From contig JAJQJQ010000040.1 in assembly GCA_028622995.1 (NCBI GenBank), positions 930,001 through 994,000 on the forward strand: 64,000 nucleotides of DNA. The letters run 5' to 3'. Position 1 is the first letter of the stretch. Every line of letters starts with the position of its first letter. Made by a program: the position numbers and the translations under genes. Below are positions 13,811-48,580 of the stretch, piece after piece. The notes below the pieces were generated by a model. That model was not told the DNA's origin, made no database searches, and saw nothing but the letters and a program-made list of their open reading frames with translations. The DNA comes from Panagrolaimus kolymaensis. Taxonomy: Eukaryota > Nematoda > Chromadorea > Rhabditida > Panagrolaimidae.

Positions 13811-15594
13811 TTAGTTTTTATTATCAGGATGATTGGTGCCAGGAAGGTGATTTTGGACGATAGTTGAATCTTTTACTCCCATTGACAATCTTGTGTTAAC
13901 ATCAAAATGCTCTCTATCAATTGTAGGATATATTGAAACATTTTTCTTACTTCCACCACCACTTTCGGCTTTGGTACTTTTTGATGATCGAAGTTCATAA
14001 TCAACCTGAAATTATTACACTGGTTTTTATTGAAAATAATAGATTAATTTGAAAATAAACTTACAAATTTTTCATAAGTCAATGCAGCATTTTTACGAGC
14101 TCTTTCATCAGAATAAATATCATTTGATCTTGCAAGAAGTTCAGATAAAGGTAACCAAGGATCATGAACAATATTAGATGGCTCTCGATCTTCTACTTTT
14201 AATTCAGATATCATTCGATTCACTTCTTCTCGATCAAGAATAACACCGCGCTAAAAAAACTTTTTTTTGTTATATATACAAATGAATAAGCATAAGTTTT
14301 ACCAAAGACCCTTGATCTTTTAATTCAGGTGGTTCAAGTAAAGGAAGTTCTTCAAATTTCTTTCCATTTGATGTTTGCCCAATCGAAGGTGAAGCATTAG
14401 GTTGTTCTAAAATGATATCATTTTCAAGTGAAGAAGGATCTTTAACATTTTTTTCTTTCTTTTCATGTTTTCTATTTGATTGTTTCTTTTTATTTTGAAT
14501 ATTTTTGTGATGTTGTTGCTGAACAGGTTTTTCACCACCTTCTTTCACAGTTGGAGATTCAGTTACGGTAGGTTCAAGAAGCATAGATCGTTGTTGTTCT
14601 GACGTTGATTTGGTTGTTCTTATATGTTTAACATTCTTTTGACGAACATGAGGTGTTGATTCAGTTGCAGCATGTCTTAATACTTTTGGGAAAATATCAT
14701 CACTTAAACGAAGGCGGCGAACTGGTTTTTTGCCATCCTAAAAAAAGCTGTTGAGAAAATTTAAAATCAAAAAGTTCAAATTCATACCTTTACTTTTCCT
14801 TTTTTGACTTTAGCTTCTTTATTCGCTGCATCGCCAATTGAAGCTCCTGTAGGTTCTTTAACATTTTCTGGACTTTTAGCACGTCTGAAAATATTTTTAA
14901 ATTTTTTCTTTGTTGAATTATCACTCGAAGATGGAGCTTTTGAATCAGGTGCGGCCGATGATGGTAATTTAGGCGTTGACGGTGATGGATCAATAAGATT
15001 TTCCTTTGACTTCTTCTTTTTTAGCTTTTTCGATTTTCCAGTGAGATCTTCGTCTTTGCTTCTATTTTGAGATGGTTTTTGTTTGAGTTTAGGTACTTCA
15101 TCATTTGAATTTTCACCAGGCTCTTTGAGATTTTCTGGATTTTTAGTTCGTTTAAAAATATTTGGGAATTTTTTCTTTGTTGAATTATCACTCGATGGAG
15201 GAGCTTTGGAATCTGGTAGAGCAGGAGATGGAGCTTGAGGTTTTGATGGAGATGGAGCAATAACATTTTCTCTTGATTTCTTCTTTCTAAACTTTTTCGA
15301 TTTTCCTGTTAGATCTTCGTCTCTGCTTCTATTCTGAGATGGTTTTTGTTTGAGTTTAGGTTCTTCTACAGTTGAATTCTCACGAAGTTCATGATTGCTT
15401 TTTTGTTGCACTGGTGGTTCTAAAAAGTTTAACTTTAACCATATCATATTACTTTGAAGAAGAAAAAAGAAAAGAAAATATAACTAACCAGTTATTGGTG
15501 GATTTTGTTGAGCTTCAGATTTTTGTTGAGTTTTATTTTGTTGTTCTTCATGTTTCTGACCAAATAATCCAAATACTCGCGTAAAAAATGACAT
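13811..15594 (-). CDS. lysine-rich low-complexity protein with internal duplication
   Basis: Start chosen at ATG 15594 (MSFFTRVFGLFGQKHEEQQ); the stop is at 13811-13813 after several gt-ag introns. The middle holds two near-identical blocks of about 89 codons (genomic period 267 bases). Each has PKLKQKPSQNRS, a basic SKKxxKKKSxEN, SDNSTKKKF and NIFxRxKxPENxKEP. The C-terminal part is less biased and looks folded (DREEVNRMISELKVED, IVHDPWLPLSELLARS, ALTYEKFVDYELRSS). I do not recognise the family. The basic bias suggests nucleic-acid, membrane or cytoskeletal binding; this is inference only. Confidence 0.7.
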
Positions 15595-38489: not shown

Positions 38490-40202
38490 ATGGAAGAAAT
38501 TGGTATGTTTTTCTTAAAGGACCATATTCATTTGCTTCCCTTTTCAAACTCGCGGCTGGATATTCGTCCCCACAAGCGCCCACACTTTGCGTGGTCGAAT
38601 ATCCAGCCGCGAGTTTGAAAAGGGAAGCAAATGAATATGGTCCTTTAAATATTTTTTATGAACGAAATATATCCTAAAATTTTAGCTAGAGAAGAACAAG
38701 CTGAAATAGCAAGATCAATTGAACTCGACGCTGCATTGAAAGGTGAGTTGATTATTATCGCTTATTACTATTTTGTAATTTTTTACTTTAGCTATCAAAG
38801 ATGCCAGACAAGCTATTGATAAAGAAAATGAACAAGCTGAGCAAGAACTTGAATCAACACTATCCGAATATGCGACTTTGGGTAACTTCAGTGGACTCAG
38901 TCAAGAACAATATTTTTCTATGAAGGCAAAAAACTTTTCAATCCATGGAGAAGTACAAAGCATGCGGCAAGCTCTTAAGAAAGAAGATTACTCGGTAATA
39001 GTTACTCCTAATTTACTTAATTTATGCTTCTTCTTTTTTCAGCTCGCTTATTGGAGAAACAAACGCATTGAACAGGATGATAATTCAAAAGCTTATGATG
39101 GTTACATATCTGGCTTGCAACAAAATCCTTGGATATTTCAAAAACTTGAGGTAAGGTGATTGGATCTTCTTTTTTATACTTATTGTCATCTTTTAGCTTG
39201 AAAAAGAAGTTGAACGCCAGCATAAGATTGTTGAAGAAAAAGAACGCCAAGTTGTAGAGCTTGAAAACGCCAAAAAGTTCAAAGCTCGTAAGTTTATAAA
39301 CATGTTTTCTTTTATTAAAGGCTGGTTTTATAGCTAAAAATAGTGTTGATACTAAGACAATCGAAATGTTCCGTAACATGGTTCGCTCTGGACTTCGTCT
39401 CACCTCCAATCGCTTTGTTGAAATTCCTCCACGAAATGAACGCTTTCCTACTCGTGCTCCTGTTGAATCAACTCCAACTCGTAAACAAAAAGTTGTTTTT
39501 CAATCTCCTCCAGCTCCTGATAAATATGTTGAACTTGAACTTGAACAGGATGATGACATGAGTTACACTCACCTTGAGTTTGAAGAAGAACCACAAAATG
39601 AAGAGGAAATGGATGATACACTTCAAAAAGAAGATGAAGGAGAAGAAGAACCACTTGAGGAAGAAAACATTTTTGGTTCATCTGATGACAACGCAATTCA
39701 TGTTAACATCACTCAAGAGAAAGATGTTACTCCTCCTCCTACTCGGGTTAGTAAACCACTTACCCCTCCAAAAACTCCTGCTCCTACTAGAGTTCGGCCT
39801 GCTGCTCACACTCCAAGAAAAAATGATGATCATCTTTTCAAAGTTCCTGAACTTCCTCGTCAAAATTCTCCTCCTAAGACTAATAAAAGCACTGATGATG
39901 ATGATATCAACAACTTTCTCAACTTTGATAACTCTCCTGATGCTGGTGCTGAATCTCAAAGTAAGATATCACGCTCACATTTATTTCACTTTTTTATTAT
40001 TATCTTTTTAGATGGTGCTAACTATTTCAATTTCCTCGGCGATAGTAATGGTGACAATCCTGGTGCTGCTTTGTTCTCTTTTTTACAACAGGATGGTGAA
40101 CAACATACAAACACTAGTGGGAATGGAAACTTCTTTTCATTTGGTTCTAGCCCTCAAGCTCAAAAGAAAAATGAAAGTGGTGGAAATAATTTCCTTTTTT
40201 AA
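38490..40202 (+). CDS. coiled-coil / acidic protein, unrecognised
   Basis: First exon is 13 bases (38490-38502), then a 183-base intron holding a fold-back element, and exons from 38686 on. The N-terminal half is helical and charged (REEQAEIARSIELDAALKA, LEKEVERQHKIVEEKERQVV). The middle is Pro/Thr-rich with many TPxxPxPT units, then acidic (EEEPQNEEEMDDTLQKEDE). The C-terminus is Asn/Ser/Phe-rich and ends NFFSFGSSPQAQKKN, with two or three FG-like units. I do not recognise the family. A nuclear-pore or centrosomal role is possible but unsupported. The five introns give a clean frame. Confidence 0.65.
38514..38648. repeat. fold-back inverted repeat inside intron 1
   Basis: Two perfectly complementary 53-base arms (38514-38566 and 38596-38648) flank a 29-base loop. 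Both ends are TTAA followed or preceded by AGGACC/GGTCCT. Removing 38514-38648 leaves an intron of 48 bases, the usual size here, so the element looks inserted. It could be a small non-autonomous transposon; the TTAA ends recall piggyBac-type targets. The identity of the arms suggests it is recent. Confidence 0.85.
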
Positions 40203-45193: not shown

Positions 45194-48100
45194 ATGCATA
45201 TTCGAAACTCATTTTTGGAAATTTTGGTGGATGAACAATGGCAAACATTCGAAGCATCCTTGGATGAAACGGCATTGACTTTAGCTCAATGTAATGAGCA
45301 ATTTATGGATGATACATTTGGAGCTAAAAAGCGAAATGTTAAAGTTGTAAAGGAAGAAGGCGGTGGATTGGGAATCAGCATTTTGGGTGGCACAGAGAAT
45401 TCAACACCCATAATGATAAGGTTCTAATCTATTTAAGCTTAAACGAAAATACAAAATAATATTTTAGCAAAATATTTCCGGGAATGGCGGTGGATCGTAC
45501 AAGGCAATTATTTGTAGGAGATTGCATTTTGGCTGTGAATGGAGAATCATTAGTCAATGCAAGACATGATGAAGCAGTGAGGGCATTAAAAAAGGCCGGA
45601 AAAGTTGTAAATTTAACAGGTTAGTCTACTGTACAATGATTCATTCACGTTCATAGACGACAAATAATTATTCAAAACTGCATTATTCAATAGATTCATT
45701 ATTTTTTTTTTAAATTATAGTGCAATACATGAAAGATCAACATATGAGGCGGGAAGATACACTTCAAAGATTATTATGGGATGATGATGAATGGTCACAA
45801 AATGAATCAGTTGATGGAACTCGAAGTTTTAGTCTTAAACTTGCTTTTGTAACTAGAACAAGCTTAGAACATGATGATGCAGAAAATAGAACTTTTGAAA
45901 TTCGTTCTCAATCAGGTCGTTATGTTTTAACTCTTCGATGTTCATCGGCAGTAGAAGCAGATGCATGGTTTGAATCTGTGCATGCCTGTGCTGAATCGTT
46001 AATGATCCAAGCTTTGGCTCAAGTCAATCTTGTTCTTGGTCAAAATCCACAAGTTCGACGAATGGGATGGCTCGCCGAGCAGGGAGTTACTGATGGAATT
46101 TTAGTTTGGAGACCTGTCTTTGTGGCCCTCACAACAAACGATTTACTTTTTTATGATTCTGTACCTGCAATAAAACATGAATGGGCAAGTCCGAGAATAA
46201 CTAGACCATTGATATGCACGCGAGTTGTGGATACTACAAGTCGAACATTCCCCGTCATTCCAGGATTATCCGATCTTATTTCATTTACAACTCGAACAGG
46301 TACATAGATTTAAGGATGAAAAAAGCTGTTAAAAACTTCCTAATTTTAGGAACTCAACAAGAACATTTGGGCCTTACCTTCGGTAAGTCCCTCAAACTAA
46401 ACAATCACACAAAAAAAATCTTCGGAAACGTTACATTTTTACAATCAAAACGTGGACATTAAACGCTTTAAAGTATTTTTTGAGAATCCTAGGGAGTGCA
46501 AATGTTTTTATGAATTCTAAAAAATTATCAAAGGGAAGATTATGTGCTTTTTTAGAGGGTGCAAAATTGGAAAAAATAGAGTGCTCAAACACCCATGTGT
46601 GTCTACAACAATACAATTAAAATAAACATCATTGTGCTTACACATTCCATTTTTCATGGTAAATTTTGGAGCCCTGCCTACGGCAGACCTCCTAAATTTT
46701 ACAAAAAGATCATTTACAATAATCAATGAGACATTTTACATAAAGAAAATCTACGGAACTGCTTACGGTAGTCTCAACATTATATATTTCATCACAATAA
46801 CAATAAACAATAGGGCCTTTCGGATCCCGAGTCAATCTTCACTCCATTCCATATCTCTCATATTCGGTTACATCTTAACCCATTCAAAGTCCATTCAATA
46901 GGCAAATTACACATGGGCCCATCAGGCCCCAAAACACATTTCAACCCAAAAACAACCAAATATCGAACCAAACACAATTAAACATTCGCCCGAACACAAC
47001 TAAACATTCACTCGAAAACAACTAAACATTCAACCAAAAACAACTAAATCTCCACCCAAACATCATCTTACATCTCACCAAAAATAACTAAATCTCCACA
47101 CAAAAATAATCTTAAATCTCACCAAAAATAACTAAATCTCCACCCAAAAATAATCTTACATCTCACCAAAAACAACTAAATCTCCACCCAAACATCCCAC
47201 CAAAAACAACTAAATCTCCACCCGAAAACCATCTTACATCTCACCAAAAACAACTAAATCTCCACCCAAACATCCCACCAAAAACAACTAAATCTCCACC
47301 CGAAAACCATCTTACATCTCACCAAAAACAACTAAATCTCCACCCAAACATCCCACCAAAAACAACTAAATCTCCACCCGAAAACCATCTTACATCTCAC
47401 CAAAAACAACTAAATCTCCACCCAAACATCCCACCAAAAACAACTAAATCTCCACCCGAAAACCATCTTACATCTCACCAAAAACAACTAAATCTCCACC
47501 CAAACATCCCACCAAAAACAACTAAATCTCCACCCGAAAACCATCTTACATCTCACCAAAAACAACTAAATCTCCACCCAAACATCCCACCAAAAACAAC
47601 TAAATCTCCACCCGAAAACCATCTTACATCTCACCAAAAACAACTAAATCTCCACCCAAACATCCCACCAAAAACAACTAAATCTCCACCCGAAAACCAT
47701 CTTACATCTCACCAAAAACAACTAAATCTCCACCCAAACATCCCACCAAAAACAACTAAATCTCCACCCGAAAACCATCTTACATCTCACCAAAAAAACT
47801 AAATCTCCACCCAAACATCTCACCAAAAAAACTAAATCTCCACCCAAAAACCATCTTACATCTCACCAAAAAAAACTATGCAGACAATCAGAGAAAAACA
47901 AATTTTTCACTTCCAAAATGCAACAGAAAAAACACAAAGGGAAATTTTCGTGTCGAGAAAAATTTTACAAAATGCAAATTTAAACTGGTCAAAACATATC
48001 AATGTTTGACTCTCCGAAGCGTGAGACCAACATATTCGGAATCAGCGTAAAAAACTGATCTAGGCTATCGGGACAAAACAAAACAAAAGCAGAACCGACA

Positions 48101-48580
48101 TACAGACAGACAGAAACGACACTCCAAATTAAAAAGGAAGACAGGGAATACGATCACATTTATTTCGAATAGAAACCCATCGAGATTTGGCATCGTGGGT
48201 GAAAGCCATCATTCAATGCACCTACGAAGCTTGTGAAGAAGTTGGACAATTGAGTACACGTAAGCATTTTAAAAAGTATTTTCAAAATTTTAGAGTATTT
48301 ATTTTCAGCTTGCGTGTGGCAAGAACGACCATGTGAACTTGTAATTAATCTTGAAAAGGGTATTTCTCTATTATCTCAAGATTCAGGAGAACTATTATGG
48401 CAGCATCCATTTTCATCCATTCGTGCTACAGGAGATGATGGAACAAAATATTTATGGGTTGATTTTGGGCCTCCAAATGGTGAGCAAGAAGTTGATTTGC
48501 TTGGTTCACCAAAACCTGTTGTATTTATTTTGCATACATTCCTTGCAACTAAAGTATTTCAACTTGGTCTTTATGCATAA
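45194..48580 (+). CDS. syntrophin (PDZ + split PH domain), alpha/beta class
   Basis: Exons 45194-45420, 45468-45619, 45721-46299, 46350-46382, 48173-48259 and 48309-48580. The PDZ domain has [20 protein letters not shown] and [20 protein letters not shown]; the PH domain ([29 protein letters not shown]) and syntrophin-unique end ([34 protein letters not shown]) follow. Syntrophins are dystrophin-complex adaptors at the muscle membrane. Intron 5 (46383-48172, 1,790 bases) is far larger than others and looks like an insertion into an exon (see findings). The predicted splice changes two or three residues relative to the family. If it is not spliced as drawn, the gene is interrupted. Confidence 0.9.
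46369..48161. mobile_element. candidate inserted element splitting a syntrophin exon
   Basis: ACATTT occurs at 46363-46368 and 48156-48161. Deleting 46369-48161 restores frame and the family consensus ([12 protein letters not shown]). The span holds a hairpin motif in three copies and the minisatellite but no transposase frame I can see. The ends are not inverted repeats. Its class is unknown; one donor site at 46383 lies inside it, and the acceptor used lies just past its right edge. Confidence 0.6.
46980..47877. repeat. minisatellite with 78-base higher-order unit
   Basis: The array core (about 47164-47790) repeats with an exact 78-base period; the cccg landmark recurs at 47221, 47299, 47377, 47455, 47533, 47611, 47689 and 47767. 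Each unit joins a 34-base and a 44-base half, both containing AACTAAATCTCCACCC. The flanks hold only diverged monomers of about 44 bases and, further left, about 25-base units with AACTAAACATTC. Confidence 0.92.

Follow-up and report, generated by a model that had tools for sequence, protein, structure and literature searches.

Among the rolling-circle transposons described so far, Helraiser/Helibat1 of bats offers the closest parallel to the element reported here; the part of PMC4778049 that deals with its termini and movement describes a palindrome 11 nt before the end, insertion at AT, and the formation of head-to-tail circles. Introners provide another point of reference, and in the portion of PMC9860276 concerned with their splice sites some of them are said to carry a 5ʹ site only and to use a 3ʹ site of the host. 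In maize, Helitrons can shape spliced transcripts, with captured gene fragments and read-through in the excerpt of PMC4528327 that bears on this, whereas the syntrophin case presented below is a bare element in an exon. Helitrons were also reported in Panagrolaimus sp. PS1159, in a brief section of PMC10879605, and the relevant excerpt of PMC10487979 mentions introners and Helitrons without linking the two.

We analysed a 64,000-nt stretch (hereafter the window), which is part of contig C39 of Panagrolaimus kolymaensis. The pertinent sections of PMC10374039 describe this nematode as a triploid parthenogen kept in culture, with a triploid, HiFi-based assembly of 266 Mb in 856 contigs and with 49 mitochondrial contigs; the genome searched in our study comprised 265.8 Mb in 807 contigs. 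Exon 4 of a syntrophin gene in the window is very probably interrupted by a Helitron with ends at 46358 and 48141, in one of three homoeologous copies of the gene. For the insert, the identity, the ends, the empty sites, the copy number and the coding relatives are established. As far as Helraiser is described in the part of PMC4778049 mentioned above, the two elements share a 5ʹ TC, a hairpin 11 nt before the 3ʹ end, a T after the 3ʹ end, the lack of a target duplication, precise head-to-tail junctions and, in coding relatives, a Rep frame with HUH-like motifs. The Panagrolaimus element differs in ending with CTTG instead of the CTAG of Helraiser, in a 5ʹ flank that is A in only 15 of 27 cases, in an internal 78-bp array, and in the GTAAGT located in its hairpin. 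Like the introners in the same portion of PMC9860276, it is a multi-copy element in a coding exon with a donor-like site; unlike them, most of its bounded copies are outside exons, there is no sign of a preference for exons, and splicing is a candidate only.

We regard this locus as a natural experiment, in which a near-unmutated Helitron occupies a conserved exon of one homoeolog and the exact empty site is present in two others. It shows recent movement of the Helitron family in the P. kolymaensis genome, and it suggests how polyploidy can hide broken exons. Our reading is that this is an ordinary, recently active Helitron family, and that triploidy can mask its insertions into exons.

The syntrophin gene and the limits of the insert

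The gene and the insert are arranged in the window as follows.

45194 to 48580, plus strand: syntrophin gene, 451 aa without the insert, with PDZ and PH domains
45194-45420, 45468-45619 and 45721-46299, plus strand: syntrophin exons 1-3
46350 to 46357, plus strand: first 8 nt of exon 4, upstream of the insert
46358 to 48141, minus strand: non-autonomous Helitron of 1,784 nt, 5ʹ end at 48141 and 3ʹ end at 46358, with termini common to many copies and with two empty homoeologs
48142 to 48259, plus strand: remainder of exon 4, downstream of the insert, containing the right ACATTT (48156-48161), host sequence
48309-48580, plus strand: syntrophin exon 5

With the insert removed, the predicted protein was 92% identical to the syntrophin of Panagrolaimus sp. 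PS1159, and a PDB search with its C-terminal part as the query returned 0 matches. The gene was found at three places in the genome, on C39, C15 (99%) and C16 (97%), in agreement with the three homoeologs expected in a triploid genome; single bases of exon 4 distinguish the homoeologs, such as G/A in TCG/TCA and T/C in TGT/TGC. The insertion point is located 8 nt past the start of exon 4, at CTCAA^CAGGG. In both other homoeologs this site was intact letter for letter, with GGAACTCAACAGGGAATACGATCACATTTATTTCG uninterrupted (19 residues encoded), and the peptide of the empty site begins with GTQQ^ at the insertion point. Joining position 46357 to 48142 in the window gave the same exon reading, and this, together with the empty sites on C15 and C16, defines the insert as 46358-48141. 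An alignment with 15 of the 115 syntrophin relatives found, which had been suggested as a check, showed their counterpart of the exon to be uninterrupted as well, at the level of proteins, in which intron positions are invisible.

The sequence-only reading of this DNA had noted ACATTT at 46363-46368 and 48156-48161, gtaagt at 46383 and an ag ending at 48172, and these letters and coordinates were correct. It also rightly described the introns of this genome as short: the other four introns of the gene measure 47, 101, 50 and 49 nt according to the exon coordinates, and the median for the window was 53 nt, as calculated from a noisy set of 139 putative introns. However, it interpreted the two ACATTT as a target duplication and placed the insert at 46369-48161, both of which are contradicted by the empty homoeologs. 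The left ACATTT is the end of the Helitron itself (its copies begin with CAAGAACATT and then G or T), whereas the right one is old host sequence, present in both empty homoeologs; in comparison with the empty sites on C15 and C16, no target duplication was found at the syntrophin insert. Judging from these alignments, the ACATTT pair at the edges of the insert is to be read as a coincidence. The ancestral reading of the exon had to be amended too, as the version proposed earlier was taken in part from the element and missed GIRS, and the true reading is that of the 19 residues in C15 and C16. The proposal that a mobile piece had recently entered a coding exon was borne out by the empty sites in C15 and C16 and by near-identical copies elsewhere.

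With regard to age, the insert was compared with the C44 and C4:645k copies; it had a single mismatch to either of them over 1,628 aligned nt, and its 78-bp array was longer by two units. Given the empty sites on C15 and C16, the insertion would most simply be younger than the split of C39 from both, and we infer that the element entered the syntrophin gene recently.

Termini, copies and coding relatives of the element

The element contains the following features.

48137 to 48141, minus strand: 5ʹ end of the Helitron, TCTTC..., with the right terminus CTCCAANTTAAAAAGGARGA at 245 places genome-wide
46369 to 46391, minus strand: 3ʹ hairpin, with a single mismatch in its 9-pair stem and its end 11 nt away from the 3ʹ end
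46358 to 46368, minus strand: 3ʹ tail, AAATGTTCTTG, which includes the left ACATTT
47116 to 47878, no strand assigned: 78-bp tandem repeat array of 9.8 copies within the element
46925 to 47881, plus strand: 957-nt stretch without an AG dinucleotide

Read on the minus strand, the layout is 5ʹ-TC, the body of the element, the hairpin, 11 nt ending with CTTG-3ʹ, and then a host T. The hairpin folded with -8.1 kcal/mol vs -2.75 for shuffles (z -3.8; 0 of 200 shuffles as good), and its stem varied on both sides, as CTTACC/GGTAAG or CCTACC/GGTAGG, and as CTGCC/GGCAG in a sister family. The 5ʹ TC end, the precise head-to-tail joins and a hairpin at about this distance from the 3ʹ end are characteristic of Helitrons. 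The usual Helitron 3ʹ end, CTRR, was not found, and because the element ends with CTTG instead, we class it as a Helitron only in the broad sense. The 78-bp array is nearly free of G, and its copy number varies, with two units above the nearest relatives in the syntrophin insert.

With up to three mismatches allowed, the left terminus matched 288 places in the genome (153+135), compared with 3 for a reversed-pattern control; the right terminus, with at most one mismatch, occurred at the 245 places listed above (control, 0). Tandem units are included in both counts. A 592-nt part of the insert yielded at least 27 full-length matches with 93-100% identity, plus partial ones, among 40 scored of 304 candidates. 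A genome search for the ends of the insert had also been suggested earlier, and it revealed many copies.

The base outside the left end was a plus-strand A (minus-strand T) in all 25 distinct flanks from loci L001-L060, which form an unbiased set, since they were fetched without the outside base in the query. The 22 flanks from L061-L090 also had A, but the pattern used to fetch them contained that A (46 of 46 distinct flanks overall). Outside the right end, the plus-strand base was T in 15, C in 8, A in 4 and G in none of 27 flanks, corresponding to a minus-strand 5ʹ flank of A in 15, G in 8, T in 4 and C in none; this set consists of 32 machine-picked flanks minus the chance matches L021 and L047 and the sister-Helitron ends L039, L061 and L067. 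Of 61 instances of head-to-tail tandem junctions, with overlapping loci counted repeatedly, 57 were seamless, and the remaining four represent one place on C3 with altered letters.

At that place (G000:C3:142551; L058, L078, L079, L080), GGATTAACAAG stands in place of GGARGACAAG. A sister Helitron, with the same CTTG end and hairpin plan and another stem, has its end (e.g. CAAGATATAAGAAGGGGCCTGCCTACGGCAGTCCCC) directly behind the right end in L039 and L061, and the start of it was also seen in L067 and L070. Two pairs of loci, L006/L007 and L009/L010 (G000:C662 and C319), are inverted copies about 7 kb apart with an identical left flank, in a palindromic duplication on short contigs. The two copies at L003 and L017 (G000:C4:645k and 1767k) have identical flanks on both sides, and the frame beside them resembles what we take to be a hAT-type transposase; these copies were probably carried along within another transposon, or converted.

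Longer relatives with the same ends (5.8-8.3 kb) carry a Helitron Rep frame. Pairing by eye the matches listed for the left end, the right end and PF14214 gave at least 12 elements in which a PF14214 match is enclosed by both ends: nine measure about 6.5-6.9 kb, one 5.8 kb and two 8.3 kb. As expected, the domain of each of the 12 is on the opposite strand from the termini as given here. The element at C4:6930356-6937003 has both termini exact. Of the two adjoining stretches read in it, one contained a 499-aa open frame (C4:6934200-6935700) that matched Helitron_like_N above the cut-off with E 6.2e-36, and the other a 304-aa frame with PHIH and YLFKYLFK, presumably the HUH and two-Tyr motifs. 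In a C44 element, a helicase-like frame at a distance of about 0.9 kb inward from the hairpin end scored 23.2 bits for Pif1_2B (cut-off 23.9), and two further helicase Pfam families likewise remained below their cut-offs. Full-length relatives with the same ends, an HUH Rep and a putative helicase are present, the helicase part being the weaker one. Genome-wide, PF14214 gave at least 150 matches, all above the cut-off (150 scored of 426 candidates), and 0 matches in 14 control genomes. At least 18 of them, counted by eye among the matches listed, had an 1,800-aa open frame; one such frame, at C44:1444117, is located 3.79 kb from the hairpin end of a unit tandem-joined to that C44 copy which most resembles the syntrophin insert, and this offset equals that in the C4 element.

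In the model we propose, exon 4 of one of the three syntrophin homoeologs received a non-autonomous Helitron in minus-strand orientation, and the Rep/helicase that mobilised it was most likely supplied in trans by full-length relatives with shared ends. In rolling-circle strand transfer, the 5ʹ TC end would be joined to host DNA and the transfer would stop at the 3ʹ hairpin and CTTG end, leaving no duplication. The C39 exon is broken in this way, and the two intact homoeologs most likely buffer the loss.

An artificial join of a repeat and the syntrophin gene during assembly deserves mention, as the repeat has many near-identical copies. Both junctions are, however, base-precise at termini found across the family, and the published assembly is HiFi-based according to the pertinent section of PMC10374039, so that we consider such a join extremely improbable. 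Another type of transposon, inserted at 46369-48161 with 6-bp duplications, could be suspected from the ACATTT at both places. It is refuted by the empty homoeologs, which have GGGAATACGATC ahead of ACATTT, and by other copies, which show CAAGAACATT at the left end amid unrelated flanks, and has virtually no probability left. A tyrosine-recombinase circle with an ACA core was also considered and rejected, as the right flanks are not only C and the coding relatives carry the Helitron Rep frame.

Exon insertions elsewhere in the family

Twenty-four insertions were bounded on both sides in the sequence fetched, and uniting the flanks produced an open frame of 100 aa or longer in six of them. The same test was positive for 102 of 2,400 shuffles and for 1,073 of 2,000 random positions in the window, which may be gene-rich. 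Three of the 24 (L061, L067 and L070) abut a sister Helitron and several flanks are short; 24 further distinct left ends, with no right end in the sequence fetched, were left out. In view of the false-positive rate in shuffles, only the four insertions with other support were counted as exonic, and L003 and L052, which lack it, were dropped.

The four supported insertions are those in syntrophin, L048, L086 and L089, and one more is likely. In L048 (G000:C2:7568891-7571211) a two-unit Helitron tandem interrupts a DNase II-like exon (YYEH^RVPDEY), the gene being supported by Pfam; no homoeolog of this stretch was found in the genome. L086 (G000:C3:3856376-3857736) is a Helitron in a Cys-rich gene with uninterrupted homoeologs on C5 (100%) and C11 (95%), and the complete identity of the C5 homoeolog across the site suggests that this insertion is very young. 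L089 (G000:C3:5432535-5434979) is a Helitron in a glycosyltransferase-like gene, uninterrupted on C5 (97%) and C40 (96%). The L086 and L089 genes had no Pfam match, and their names are our own reading. The donor hairpin was in sense in three of the four supported insertions and reversed in one, L089 being in the opposite orientation. Exon insertions recur in this family, with no sign of a preference for exons.

At L083 (G000:C3:2584071-2585532), uniting the flanks gives ELLAQQLHEATAAVLAKTEMVNKAIKYDMASSP when the opposite strand is read, and from this reading it is probably another exon insertion.

Splice signals and the fate of the transcript

Whether the hairpin of a Helitron can act as a donor bears on intron gain, and the following sites were compared.

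46383 to 46388, plus strand: GTAAGT, donor-like site in the hairpin arm, 77.7th percentile of the donor model
48135 to 48136, plus strand: AG at the edge of the element (AAAAAG/GAAGA), 1.4th percentile, rank 22 of 46 AGs
48171 to 48172, plus strand: AG, the acceptor proposed in the sequence-only reading, above 0 of 139 putative acceptors, rank 30 of 46 AGs

The splice model was trained on the 139 putative window introns, which were picked by open frames rather than RNA and are noisy, and the percentiles are rough. The insert does bring a donor-like GTAAGT, as had been pointed out; the site is in the Helitron hairpin and occurs in most copies seen, being lost in the CCTACC/GGTAGG variant. The best AG in the stretch was at 46671 (73rd percentile), with which the frame is lost from donor 46383, and the native acceptor at 46349 was intact (64.7th percentile). 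From donor 46383, the frame stays intact and free of stops with seven acceptors, 48172 included. Only 48136 among them preserves GIRSHLF, and 48184 and 48238, at about the 15th percentile, score above 48172. The splice from 46383 to 48172 does keep the frame and yields EHLGLTFETHRDL, as stated earlier, but with seven such acceptors this is not a distinctive feature and gives no evidence of an intron. The product would be without GIRSHLFRI, mostly conserved residues of the PH domain, whereas a splice from 46383 to 48136 would keep all host residues and gain ten. Skipping of exon 4 also keeps the frame, and an unspliced C39 transcript reading into the element meets a stop after 356 residues. A spliced product from the C39 copy is possible: the hairpin contains, by chance, the GGTAAGT at 46382-46388, and some transcripts may splice from it or from the native donor of intron 3. 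With two intact homoeologs on C15 and C16, splicing of the C39 copy would be unnecessary for the tolerance of the insertion by the worm.

Three fates of the RNA were weighed, all of which are compatible with a Helitron insertion in one of three homoeologs. According to the sequence-only reading, the insert became a new intron, spliced from the C39 transcript between the hairpin donor and the host acceptor 48172. The donor is good and the splice is in frame, but the acceptor scores above none of the 139 putative acceptors, six other acceptors keep the frame as well (two with higher scores) and conserved residues are lost, which leaves this proposal unsupported and, in our estimate, very unlikely. 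The native intron 3 could alternatively be lengthened, running from its donor at 46300 over the Helitron to 48136. The insertion is merely 8 nt into exon 4, neither a stop nor a frame shift arises, and the product would be near-normal and one residue shorter (450 vs 451 aa); against the poor score of acceptor 48136 and the intact native acceptor 46349, we consider this course unlikely.

Splicing from the hairpin donor to the AAAAAG edge would leave 25+5=30 nt of the element, i.e. ten codons, in any insertion phase, so that the Helitron would behave as an introner. In each of the three element variants tried, no frame of these 30 nt contained a stop, and the host residues stay whole. On the other hand, the edge acceptor is at the 1.4th percentile, a multiple of three arises by chance in one case of three, no exon enrichment was seen (the 6 of 24 joined frames vs the 1,073 of 2,000 random window positions), and the hairpin mismatch that gives GTAAGT is also present in three sister hairpins without GTAAG; we find this route quite improbable. 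A broader form of the idea, in which the termination hairpin also serves as a 5ʹ splice site (G/GTAAGT) and the termini are frame-neutral, would make the locus a Helitron-type introner at the moment of its origin, with one homoeolog occupied and the two empty sites still preserved, and this too appears unlikely. If it were true, rolling-circle transposons of Panagrolaimus could enter exons and leave as ready-made introns. Selection for the donor as the cause of the hairpin mismatch was rejected, since the three sister hairpins (L039, L061) keep the mismatch without that motif.

Two further repeats were noticed in the window: an inverted repeat at 38514-38648, with 62-nt arms that are 95% complementary and an 11-nt loop, and a 267-nt unit at 14822-15355, present in two direct copies with 79% identity.
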